Below are positions 19,273-23,134 of a stretch of DNA of 64,000 nt, piece by piece (position 1 is the first letter of the stretch; every line of letters starts with the position of its first letter). A program made the translations under genes and the position numbers. This DNA comes from Propionibacteriaceae bacterium (GTDB taxonomy: Bacteria; Actinomycetota; Actinomycetes; Propionibacteriales; Propionibacteriaceae): contig JAISJO010000102.1 of NCBI GenBank assembly GCA_031261485.1, forward strand, positions 1 through 64,000. The letters run 5' to 3'. The notes under the pieces were generated by a model. It saw only the letters and a program-made list of their open reading frames with translations, was not told the origin of the DNA and searched no databases.

Positions 19273-19346
19273 GGGCCCATAGCTCAGTCGGTTAGAGCGC
19301 TGCCCTGATAAGGCAGAGGTCGCTGGTTCAAGTCCAGCTGGGCCCA
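19273..19346 (+). tRNA. tRNA-Ile (anticodon GAT)
   Basis: A 74-nt cloverleaf. The acceptor stem GGGCCCA pairs with TGGGCCC and leaves A as discriminator. The D-arm contains AGCTCAGTCGGTTAGAGC. The anticodon arm is CTGCC-CTGATAA-GGCAG with anticodon GAT. The T-arm is GCTGG-TTCAAGT-CCAGC. No CCA is encoded. A GAT isoleucine tRNA downstream of gyrA and DUF3566 is a common actinobacterial arrangement. Confidence 0.97.
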
Positions 19347-19350
19347 CTCG

Positions 19351-19607
19351 CGATTGAGCCGAGCGACGATGAGCTTGCTCAATCGTCCGAGGCGATTGAA
19401 GCTGGTCGTAGGAACAGAGTTCCGAACACACGGTAGAAGTGAGATAGCGAGAAGAGAATCCGGCGATGCAAGTTTACTTGCATGAGTCGGATTTTCTTGT
19501 CGCTGGGCGAGCGCCTCAGTGTTGACGAGCGGTCGAAGACCGCGAGGAGCACAATGGGGCACGCGCGGCGCGAAGCGCCATCTCACTTCAGATAGCGACC
19601 GAACGCC
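19351..19607 (+). ncRNA. Candidate structured non-coding RNA downstream of tRNA-Ile
   Basis: The region has no protein-coding signal but a dense set of nested complementary segments. They are: GGAAC-AGA-GTTCC (19411-19423); a 10-bp long-range stem GAAGTGAGAT (19436-19445) with ATCTCACTTC (19580-19589); inside it a long hairpin 19447-19503 with an inner perfect ATGCAAG-TTTA-CTTGCAT; a hairpin GCGGTC-GAA-GACCGC (19529-19543); and a hairpin GGCGC-GAA-GCGCC (19567-19579). Outside lie GGTCG/CGACC (19404-19408, 19596-19600) and GGCG/CGCC (19391-19394, 19604-19607). A 9-bp pair CGATTGAGC/GCTCAATCG spans 19351-19385. It does not show the conserved cores of RNase P RNA, tmRNA or SRP RNA. The strand is inferred from the tRNA promoter, so the opposite strand is possible. 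Confidence 0.6.
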
Positions 19608-19709
19608 ATACCGAGCTTGTGGGAACCACTGACCCCTGCATGTCATCGGGATTCGGTGGGCCTTGTCCCAGATTCCAAGTCTGCGGACGCGCCCGGAGGA
19701 CTCACAGTG

Positions 19710-21962
19710 TTAGAAGCCGAAAATCGGGGCTAGCTGGCTCCAACTCTGAGCGCGGACGAAGACTGGGACGCGGTTGCGAGGTGTTGTTGTTTCTACAGTC
19801 AGACCACCAAGCTGGGATTCGCCCGTCCATGCGTTGATCCATTCCCCAGTAGGGAGATAGACCGGCCAGGTATCGGCTCCTGCTTCCAGGATGGGTGCGA
19901 CAAGGATGTGATCGCCGAGCTTCCACTGAATCGGGTGCTCCCATACTTGCGGGTCATCGGGATGATCGAAATACAGGGGTCTCATGAGCGGACGGCTGCT
20001 ATCGATGGCAAGGTGTGCCTGCTCAGCCAGATACGGCACTAGGCGTTCGCGCAACTCTACGATTTCGCGGACTTCGTCGATGACTGCTTGGTCGCCGGTG
20101 CGCTGTGCAATATTCCACGGTGTACGGTCTTGGGACGGTAGTCGGTGATGGTTGAACTCGGAGTGGTACTGCATGATTGGGACGAACGCGCTGGCGGCCA
20201 TCGCCCGAACGTACAACTCAGCGTCTGGAATCGGGCCGGAGAACCCGGCGATATCCCAACCCCAGTAGACGATGCCACAGGCGGCGGCGTTCAGCCCAGC
20301 CAGCATTGACCAGCGGAAGGCGTCCCACGTCGAGTTTTCGTCCCCAGCCCAGAAGGCTCCATGCGCTTGCGAACCGGTGTAGCCAGAGCGGCTGAAGGTA
20401 ACGGGAGCTTTACCACACGATTCCAACAGCTTGCCGTAGGCGGCGGCATAGGCGCACGGGTAGGCGTTGTTCTTGGCGTCACCCTTCGTGGAGTCGAGAT
20501 AGACCAGATCACTTCCCCAGGCGTGCTCACCACCGTCCGTCTTGAAGCCATCGATACCCACTTCTTCAACCAGGTAGCGGCGTTGGGACGTCCACCAATC
20601 GGCGGCTCGCTCATCGGTTAGGTCGGGCATAAGCCCCAGTGGGAACCACCAACCGCGATTGCGATACGGACGTAGGCGGCCATCGGGAGCCTTTTCTCGA
20701 ATCAGGACGTTCTCGCGAATCGCCGACTGGGCATCGGCCTTGGCCTGACCCTGCGGATGCGGACGAGTCTTAATGAGTGGGATCTGCCACAGATGGACGC
20801 GGACATTTTGATCGTGGAGTCGGTCAACCATGGCCTTCGGGTCTGGCCAAGCCCCTTCTGCAGGAAAAGTGAAGTCGCTGAGGTGATGCGGCGAAGCATC
20901 TTCATGGAAGGTATACGCCGCATCCCGGAAAATGGTGAAAGTTTGCTCGTCGCTCCAGGCCTCAATGACGACATTGCCAACTGGAATGCCGTGCTGCCGG
21001 TGCAGGGCGACCTGCCGTTCGACTTCGGTCTGGGTATTCCATTCATTGCCGGATGCCCAGAGCTTGAACACCCAGTCGGGAAGCTCTTTCGCGCGTCCGG
21101 CCTCATTCAAGAACTGGTCCAGCACTTGCGCGGGCGTCCCGGAATAGAAAGCCACGGTGAGCGCATCTTTGGTACCAGAAGGGACATCAACCTCGGCCTC
21201 GATCCGTAGTTGGTCAGGCTGAGTTTCGCCGATATCAAACCAAACCCGACGATTGGTACGGACATGGAAGCCCCAACCCTGCCCACCGACAACATGAGCG
21301 AACGGCATGGGCAGGTAGGTGCGACGGTGTGCGCCTTGGCTCTTGTATTGCTCAAAGACTTGATTGTCCAGGCTCAGTCCGCGCTGGTCGACGGTGTCGT
21401 AGCGCTCCCCAAATCCGGTCACATGCTCGCCGTCGTGTAGTGGCAATGAAAAACGAACCCGATGGACGCGCTCACCGTCATCAAGAACAGACACCGACCC
21501 GACAGGAACCACATCAGTCTTGCTGGGAAATACCAGTTTGTTGTCCTCAAAAGCAACGGCATTGGGCGCACTCTTCCAAGACGCTGCCCGCACCGTAAAC
21601 CAGCGAGTCGTCTCGGTCGTGCCATCGCCGTGACGGGCAACGAAACGGTAACCTATCTCTCCCGCTGGCGCCAGCGGGACTTCGGCTTGCCAGCCGCCTG
21701 CTTGCCGTGCCTTTCGAGCTTGGGCGGACGCCAGGTGGCCGCCATCTTGGGTTTGGCCGCGCGAAGAACGTGGAACCTCAGCCAGTTCGAGTGGCGCAAT
21801 AGGTTGGCCATCAACATTGATTTCGGCTGTCACTGAGAGGACTTCTCCAGAAGTGCGAGCCCCCAATCGCAGCGGTTCACCAGCAATCGGGGTAACCGGC
21901 CAGCGCTGTTCAGTGTCTGGCGAGTAAGGGTGGCCGGAGCCAAGGGGACGATGCCGGATCAT
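19710..21962 (-). CDS. GH31 family alpha-glycosidase
   Basis: A 750-residue glycoside hydrolase family 31 enzyme (alpha-glucosidase or alpha-xylosidase type). The N-terminal beta-sandwich is followed by the catalytic barrel. The nucleophile motif is GIDGFKTDGGEHAW (Asp in KTDGGE) and the acid/base motif is WAGDENSTWDAFRWSM. The GH31 signature RSGYTGSQ lies between them, and a C-terminal beta-domain closes the protein (PVYLPTGEWINAWTG). KTD-GGE rather than WNDMNE is closer to the xylosidase/YicI-like branch, so specificity is open. There is no signal peptide, so it is cytoplasmic. The ATG at 21962 overlaps the GH15 stop (ATGA). Last gene of cluster A. Confidence 0.9.
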   Translation of the reverse strand: MIRHRPLGSGHPYSPDTEQRWPVTPIAGEPLRLGARTSGEVLSVTAEINVDGQPIAPLELAEVPRSSRGQTQDGGHLASAQARKARQAGGWQAEVPLAPAGEIGYRFVARHGDGTTETTRWFTVRAASWKSAPNAVAFEDNKLVFPSKTDVVPVGSVSVLDDGERVHRVRFSLPLHDGEHVTGFGERYDTVDQRGLSLDNQVFEQYKSQGAHRRTYLPMPFAHVVGGQGWGFHVRTNRRVWFDIGETQPDQLRIEAEVDVPSGTKDALTVAFYSGTPAQVLDQFLNEAGRAKELPDWVFKLWASGNEWNTQTEVERQVALHRQHGIPVGNVVIEAWSDEQTFTIFRDAAYTFHEDASPHHLSDFTFPAEGAWPDPKAMVDRLHDQNVRVHLWQIPLIKTRPHPQGQAKADAQSAIRENVLIREKAPDGRLRPYRNRGWWFPLGLMPDLTDERAADWWTSQRRYLVEEVGIDGFKTDGGEHAWGSDLVYLDSTKGDAKNNAYPCAYAAAYGKLLESCGKAPVTFSRSGYTGSQAHGAFWAGDENSTWDAFRWSMLAGLNAAACGIVYWGWDIAGFSGPIPDAELYVRAMAASAFVPIMQYHSEFNHHRLPSQDRTPWNIAQRTGDQAVIDEVREIVELRERLVPYLAEQAHLAIDSSRPLMRPLYFDHPDDPQVWEHPIQWKLGDHILVAPILEAGADTWPVYLPTGEWINAWTGESQLGGLTVETTTPRNRVPVFVRAQSWSQLAPIFGF

Positions 21963-23134
21963 GAGGCTGCCTCCTGAGTTGGGGCGGGTGTTGAAGCTTG
22001 AGAACAAGTATGAGCTGTTGGACAAATGCCAAGGTCTGCAGCGAGTCGCAGCAGCATTCCGTGGCTCCATAAGAGCGGGGTGGCAACGTCTCCCCACTTG
22101 TCGATCCACTCTTGTTTGAATTCGGGGGCTAGCAATTCACCGCCGTCCACTTGTTCAGGCAGGTCTCCAGATTCAGTTGCGGTGGACGCCGCCCATTCCA
22201 GACAGGCGAGCGCCTCGGCGCGGTTGCCGGCAGCAAGCTTGGCCAGGCCAAGGAAGCAGGTGAGCAACGGCCACCGGCCACCGCCAAAGAAGGTGTCGGC
22301 GCGAAAACGATACACACCGCCACCAACTACTAGATCGGCACTAATCGCCGCGATAGTGCCCTGACCGAGCGGGGAGTCAGCAGCAATAACTCCCAAAGGA
22401 GCCAGCAGTGACGACAGCGAGCCATCGAGAGCCGGGTTGCCAATCCACTTGATCAAGTGCGCGCCATCGGTTCCTTGCGTGGCGATCAGGTCGGCGATCT
22501 GAGCCACAGCCAGCGAAACAGCCTCGGCTCGCGCTCCGCCAATAACACCGCAACGCTCGGCGGCCTGCAACCCAGCCTGAATGCAACCAAGAGTAGAGAT
22601 GTGGACGGCCTCGCAGTGCTCTTCCCACCAGTCAAAGCAGGGACGGCGCCAAGAAGAAACCAGGTAGTCAACGGTGAGGACTATGGCATCTGCCCAGCGA
22701 CCAAGATCAAGGCCGTGCCGATCAGCGTGGGCAACGACTGCCCAAAGCCACGTGCCATAGCCGTCTAGCTGAAAGTCCCACCACTCATCATCACCGGGCA
22801 GGCCGTCGAAAGTGAACCGAGTGGGAAGCATCTGCGAATCCGGTACCGGTTCGCCAGCCGCTGCTGCGGCGACGATCCGTTCTATCTGGCCTTTGTTATT
22901 GTCGATGACCCGGGCACACCAATCATAGAACCGGCTGGCGGAGTCGATCTCTCCCACGGTCGAAACACCGTCTGCAATAAACGAGCCATCTCGAAACCAG
23001 CAGAATCCCTGATAGGCGGAGAAGTCAGGGCTGGCTGGGTAAGCGCCACTCGGTGTCTGCAAGCTGGTTATCAATTCTCGGGAGTGCCTAAGCAGGACCG
23101 CGAGGTTTGAATGGCTTGTCATGAAGCTGGTCAT
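21959..23134 (-). CDS. Compact GH15 family glucohydrolase
   Basis: About 391 residues of a helical (alpha/alpha)6-barrel GH15 protein without the N-terminal beta-domain found in larger glucoamylases. Landmarks are YQGFCWFRDGSFIAD near residue 40, DGYGTWLWAVVAHADRHG, RPCFDWWEEHCEAVHIST (the likely acid Glu), GGRWPLLTCFLGLAK, and LPEQVDGG (the likely base Glu) with TPLLWSHGMLL at the end. Compact GH15 enzymes of this size include isomaltose-type glucohydrolases, so substrates such as isomaltose are plausible. No signal peptide. The start is uncertain: ATGs at 23134, 23122 and 23179 all lack a strong ribosome binding site; similarity starts after 23122. Confidence 0.82.
   Translation of the reverse strand: MTSFMTSHSNLAVLLRHSRELITSLQTPSGAYPASPDFSAYQGFCWFRDGSFIADGVSTVGEIDSASRFYDWCARVIDNNKGQIERIVAAAAAGEPVPDSQMLPTRFTFDGLPGDDEWWDFQLDGYGTWLWAVVAHADRHGLDLGRWADAIVLTVDYLVSSWRRPCFDWWEEHCEAVHISTLGCIQAGLQAAERCGVIGGARAEAVSLAVAQIADLIATQGTDGAHLIKWIGNPALDGSLSSLLAPLGVIAADSPLGQGTIAAISADLVVGGGVYRFRADTFFGGGRWPLLTCFLGLAKLAAGNRAEALACLEWAASTATESGDLPEQVDGGELLAPEFKQEWIDKWGDVATPLLWSHGMLLRLAADLGICPTAHTCSQASTPAPTQEAAS

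Follow-up and report, generated by a model that had tools for sequence, protein, structure and literature searches.

A probable lineage-specific insertion of two gene-less structured repeat elements at the 3' end of a tRNA-Ile gene in a Propionibacteriaceae genome

The 3' ends of tRNA genes are familiar landing sites of phages and islands, and the repeats of the E. coli tyrT locus, which lie downstream of a tRNA gene and include copies of the tRNA 3' end, are processed from the tRNA transcript (rtT RNA). Bacterial MITEs are short, non-coding and dispersed, with inverted-repeat ends, direct repeats in some cases and would-be transcripts that fold strongly; the word tRNA is absent from the main text of a review devoted to them (PMC10969869). 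The REP and BIME palindromes associated with RAYT genes (GTAG and CGTC families) are small and structured, have alternative complementary stems and occur singly or in groups (PMC3733652). Among eukaryotes, tRNA-targeting retrotransposons such as the Dictyostelium TRE, which encodes its own proteins, use the flanks of tRNA genes as safe insertion sites (PMC5006619). We report here on positions 19348 to ~19611 of the window (the whole 64,000-nucleotide stretch of DNA that was analysed), which we consider to be probably a lineage-specific insertion of two non-autonomous, MITE/REP-like structured elements, A and S, that target tRNA 3' ends and are probable tRNA trailers. Under the same reading, A and S would be part of an actinobacterial set of gene-less repeats that are often found at the 3' ends of tRNA and tmRNA genes in the orientation of those genes.

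The source genome is a draft of 112 contigs. Upstream of the tRNA-Ile gene in the window lie a gene that we take, from its sequence, to be gyrA and a DUF3566 gene, and a GH31 glycosidase gene (19710-22109, minus strand) converges on the locus from downstream. An earlier note on this DNA had proposed that 19351-19607 is a large structured RNA following tRNA-Ile, and much of its description held. Pairing is far beyond chance, with a minimum free energy of -127 kcal/mol against -86.8 +/- 4.3 in shuffled sequences (z = -9.45; 0 of 200 shuffles equal), and folding of both strands, which the note had proposed, gave the weaker fold for the antisense strand (-106.7 versus -127). The 10-bp stem is exact, 19436-19445 (GAAGTGAGAT) being perfectly complementary to 19580-19589 (ATCTCACTTC), and the three hairpins enclosed by it lie where they had been placed, two of them (H2 and H3 below) with GAA triloops. 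Nothing in the stretch other than the tRNA attains an Rfam gathering score (the best sub-threshold matches are mir-1252, 20.3 of 70 bits, and RAGATH-25, 14.6 of 49); the note had named RNase P RNA, tmRNA, SRP RNA and 6S RNA as families whose hallmarks it did not see. A coding origin was likewise rejected, since the sole overlapping ORF of at least 100 aa (19284-19646, minus strand, 120 aa), which extends antisense into tRNA-Ile, has no Pfam match. A simple scan agreed with the lack of a terminator between tRNA and stretch (0 sites), and a simple sigma-70 scan gave no support to the tRNA promoter that had been placed upstream (0 sites); excision of the stretch from a tRNA-Ile transcript, as the note envisaged, is possible.

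What did not stand is the idea of a single RNA gene. A search of the bacterium's own genome splits the 260-base stretch into a mosaic of two modules with copies elsewhere: 19351-19430 matches ~18 dispersed places, and 19427-19590 matches one other place (C72:65-229, 84%). The features of the locus, all on the plus strand, are as follows.

19273-19347, +: tRNA-Ile (GAT), the presumptive insertion target, whose 3' end CCCAC abuts element A (ARAGORN; Rfam RF00005, 78.1 bits)
19345-19408, +: hairpin of element A, a weak X/X' stem (CACTCGC / GCTGGTCG) plus an inner hairpin (model R2, 69.5 bits, E 7e-17)
19409-19430, +: tail of element A, with GTAGG, a small hairpin GGAAC-AGA-GTTCC (19411-19423) and the end GAACACA (compare own-genome copies ending CGAACA(C))
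19435-19591, +: element S, the outer 10-bp stem (19436-19445 / 19580-19589) enclosing three hairpins (copies in C72 and genome G279; covariation)
19446-19504, +: hairpin H1 of S, a long, near-unbroken stem with a TTTA tetraloop (double changes in 11 of 25 pairs)
19507-19566, +: hairpin H2 of S, with a purine-rich internal loop (TTGACGAG / CGAGGAGCAC) and a GAA triloop
19567-19579, +: hairpin H3 of S, GGCGC-GAA-GCGCC
19592-19611, +: residual sequence separating S from the old flank (weak gapped alignment with sister species G013), weakly alignable to the tRNA-Ile 3' end and possibly a decayed copy of it
19612-19650, +: old downstream flank, common to the empty site of G013 and near-identical from 19623 (GAACCACTGACCCCTGCATGTC)

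Element S is 157 bp long and forms a four-way structure in which one stem closes three hairpins. Besides the copy in the window there are two full copies: C72:73-230 in the same genome (84% identity), immediately downstream of a tmRNA 3'-end copy (CTCCACAC), and G279 C23:7210-7373 in another genus (g9), which a family search located 5 nt past tRNA-Val(GAC). In an alignment of the three that was fitted to the model structure, and is flattering to that extent, 96% of cells are paired and 21 of 59 pairs carry compensatory double changes (0 of 500 shuffles; slid versions at most 5); the G279 copy, folded independently and alone, adopts the same four-way shape (z -8.84). The earlier note's interpretation is partly supported, in that the structure covaries, with the fold of S kept in another genus and again after a tRNA. 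The two copies of the source genome by themselves give 6 double changes (6 of 500 shuffles). Among 199 genomes searched in the family, S turned up in two genera only, along with an A-like match after tmRNA; it was not found in 18 sister species, and scanning named genomes and viral contigs for exact patterns of its core gave no match. Its site is empty in G013, and a target duplication is not clear in the window. Since there are only three full copies, we infer the mobility of S from the empty site and the scattered placement. A weak relative of S (36 bits) follows tRNA-Tyr (L073 130-330), where a stem closes three near-perfect hairpins, one of more than 20 bp (z = -13), and tandem ~60-bp repeats come next.

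Element A as a whole (19345-19430) is a non-coding, dispersed hairpin repeat of ~80 bp. Its internal loop is symmetric, GATTGAG opposite CGATTGA, and is followed by a C-G run with tandem G-A (CCGAG/CCGAGG) and a variable hairpin; copies generally continue with the tail hairpin and GA(A/G)CA(C), which in the window closes by directly repeating the CAC of the tRNA end. With a model derived from 33 diverse copies, 27 are found in the source genome, that of the window included, and a phylum-wide search with 35 candidates scored per genome places A in at least 3 of 150 genomes. Outside of the source genome it occurs in Nesterenkonia, Leucobacter, Actinomyces, Demequina and termite-gut Propionibacteriaceae. 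Size and spread (non-coding, under ~500 bp, many dispersed copies) make A MITE-like, as they do S with its two copies here and one in another genus. Several copies are nested in larger repeats (L012, L013, L016-L018, L021, L025, L026), a number of these with the ends GTCATTCTGCGCGAAGTCGCA...TGCGACTTCGCGCAGAATGAC; a second group (L015, L019, L020, L022-L024) has the ends GGGGGACCCCCAAACACCGG...GGATTTTGGGGGTG. A related dispersed hairpin element in G014 (L130, L132, L134-L140), with the form CAGCCGAGAGCAG...CTGCCGAGGC...TTGACGAGCGMAGCGAGGAGCAC, has no adjoining tRNA in the loci read.

The stems of A covary, with double changes in 14 of 19 pairs and a score of 0.46 against 0.166 when shuffled (0 of 500). 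Its loops are invariant while the stems vary, a constancy that is built in by the pattern for copies found by pattern and that is also true of copies found by similarity. The outer X/X' stem varies in sequence from copy to copy with its complementarity retained: the flanks form 4.05 paired bases on average against 2.02 when shuffled among copies (maximum of 2000 shuffles 2.40), in a test that counted each of 73 distinct copies twice, a duplication that does not alter the observed mean but somewhat narrows the spread of the shuffles; the gap far exceeds the effect of double counting. In the window copy the X/X' stem contains mismatches, and X' is a better match to the sequence flanking the tRNA-Val copy (CCACCAGC, C62) than to the tRNA-Ile flank, pointing to a source copy that resembled the one in C62. 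G-T pairs outnumber A-C pairs in the inner hairpin of A (62 versus 35) and slightly in S (6 versus 3), and the X/X' stem is without such bias (17 versus 20); the excess points weakly to folding of one strand, as RNA or single-stranded DNA, rather than as a cruciform.

The placement of A was read from a pattern scan of named genomes that was blind to tRNAs and returned 45 loci, in Propionibacteriaceae MAGs (of termite-gut origin, to judge by their names), Nesterenkonia, Leucobacter, Actinomyces, Demequina, Microbacterium, Nocardioides and others. Thirteen of the 45 begin within -1 to 3 nt of where a tRNA gene ends (Leu 8, His 2, Arg, Ala, Val), where by our estimate, given ~50 tRNAs in 3 Mb, well under one would be expected at random. 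All 13 are on the 3' side and in tRNA orientation; none of the scan loci has A on the opposite side or strand of an adjoining tRNA. Within the source genome A follows tRNA-Ile, tRNA-Val(GAC) and tRNA-Leu(TAG), and an A-like element follows tmRNA in another genus. Many copies have no adjoining tRNA, some being in tandem or within other repeats.

Comparison of orthologous sites bears on how the stretch arose. In G013 the tRNA-Ile site is empty, CCACCA-AACCTCGCTTATCC-GAACCACTGACCCCTGCATGTC, the right part being the window sequence from 19623, and it follows that the A+S stretch is a lineage-specific insertion. G007 has a single A at this tRNA, with the direct repeat CACCA, and in most other relatives the site shows nothing comparable; the claim of an RNA peculiar to tRNA-Ile had to be given up, both on these grounds and for the copies of A away from tRNAs. 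A filled and an empty site can also be compared inside another repeat, B, whose junction GAGTCGAACCC^GTGAGGG is intact in the C62 tail; in C72 and C53 an A-type element occupies it, and ACCC is repeated. For A, therefore, filled and empty sites with a target duplication (ACCC or CACCA), as used to define MITEs, are at hand.

The tRNA-Ile stretch is one instance of a genome-wide pattern with several element types. Seventeen of 41 tRNA/tmRNA 3' flanks (200 nt) have z <= -3.5, where 60 random windows have a 5% quantile of -1.8 and one at -5.3, and for 9 of 42 tRNA/tmRNA genes the gene's own 3' end recurs over at least 14 nt no more than 400 bp downstream, a structured body filling the interval (element B). 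The layout of B is a tRNA, often a terminator hairpin, the structured body and a direct copy (16-24 nt) of the tRNA's own 3' end; it occurs after tRNAs for Ala, Cys, Glu, Leu and Ser as well as at the tmRNA 3'-end copies of C62 and C72 (loci L043 4470-4900, L065, L066, L067, L069 and L071, i.e. G000 C53, C41, C111, C55, C2 and C24). Antisense pairing with the T-arm was rejected for B, inverted matches to the own tRNA being mostly no longer than those to others; specificity for the tRNA is confined to the direct 3'-end copies. A further multi-hairpin element, TCGGAGGATTGG...CCAATCCTCC, directly follows Leu-CAA, Lys-TTT and Lys-CTT (L142, L153, L174), and its closing stem varies by compensation. 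The tmRNA gene is followed by an ORF that, from its sequence, we presume to be a phage-type, tyrosine-integrase-like gene (L063 445-2093, G000 C62), and the copy of the tmRNA 3' end close to the end of C62 may represent the right attachment site.

How the elements would move and persist can be sketched if A and S are indeed insertions at tRNA ends. They would be maintained for their folded form and not for their sequence. With no genes inside them, the enzyme that moves them would be supplied in trans, and since loops are fixed while stems are free, a folded single strand, together with the tRNA end, might be what it recognises. The insert might then be co-transcribed as a trailer of the tRNA and trimmed off, so that the host would tolerate it. 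Template-switch correction in DNA could produce double changes without selection and could account for part of the likeness within long stems. A more specific proposal, which we hold to be unlikely, is that X' is complementary to the insertion flank X and differs in each copy to match the target, in a layout X-hairpin-X'-hairpin-X, insertion at tRNA 3' ends being guided by base pairing or copied by snap-back.

The fixed side and orientation of A beside tRNAs, the finding of S in its two genera only after tRNA or tmRNA ends, the G-T excess that one-strand folding predicts and the wealth of structured tRNA flanks would all suit functional trailers of tRNA operons, kept by the host because their fold ends transcription, keeps exonucleases out or directs 3' maturation. 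We regard this as possible, if doubtful, in view of the empty site of the sister species, the lack of such an element at most orthologous tRNA-Ile genes, the copies of A that are off tRNAs, in tandem or inside other repeats, and the terminator-like site that is absent. The -1 to 3 nt spacing and the single orientation are in turn hard to explain by passive tolerance, and they make it very improbable that A and S are REP-like or cruciform DNA repeats that play no part as RNA, that slippage or gene conversion has spread them and that their preference for tRNAs is passive, the 3' flanks of these genes being free intergenic space, even though the copies are dispersed, palindromic and tandem as such repeats would be; moreover, no RAYT gene was found.

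The integrase-like ORF beside tmRNA, the repeated tmRNA 3' end at the C62 terminus and the nine genes with nearby copies of their own 3' ends recall phages or integrative elements that attach at tRNA 3' ends, of which A and S might be leftovers, the structured pieces being arms of attachment sites and the repeated 3' ends old att sites. This seems improbable to us: A and S hold at most 3-5 bp of a tRNA 3' end and no att core, A occurs off tRNAs too, and a phage or plasmid origin was rejected for lack of similarity in 50,697 phage and 72,556 plasmid records, with no match to A or S in scans of viral contigs. An insertion of two mobile structured elements at the tRNA-Ile end remains our preferred reading. 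If it is true, actinobacteria carry numerous parasites or trailers whose fold is under selection, which could be of use for studying the movement of folded nucleic acids, tRNA 3' processing with long structured trailers and an enzyme that targets tRNA ends.

No published description of elements of this type was found in the open literature (subscription papers lay outside its scope), and the set is, provisionally, seemingly undescribed; tiny gene-less structured elements that land at tRNA 3' ends were, as far as we found, not previously known. A REP/RAYT system was rejected on two counts. The search for a Y1 transposase (PF01797) gave 0 matches in the source genome, and thus no transposase or other mover for A or S, where the same search was positive in 5 of 14 control genomes; and A, at ~80 bp with its GATTGAG double-loop core, is not a 20-40 bp palindrome with a GTAG/CGTC tag, GTAG being present only in some tails. 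The likeness to REP and BIME sequences (PMC3733652) lies in the structured palindromes, the alternative complementary stems and the single or grouped occurrence, whereas A and S are larger and composite, without tagged 20-40 bp hairpins and in a genome without the transposase. With bacterial MITEs (PMC10969869) they share all of the general properties given at the outset, but differ from them in lying directly at tRNA 3' ends in fixed orientation, in their compensating stems and fixed internal loops and in their multi-hairpin form, and the PF01797 search brought up no parent transposon for them. Dictyostelium TRE (PMC5006619) is alike in its use of tRNA flanks and differs as a protein-encoding eukaryotic element from the gene-less A and S. 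The tyrT/rtT repeats resemble element B, yet tyrT is one E. coli locus, whereas A and S, without a tRNA copy, are found at several tRNAs and in several genera.
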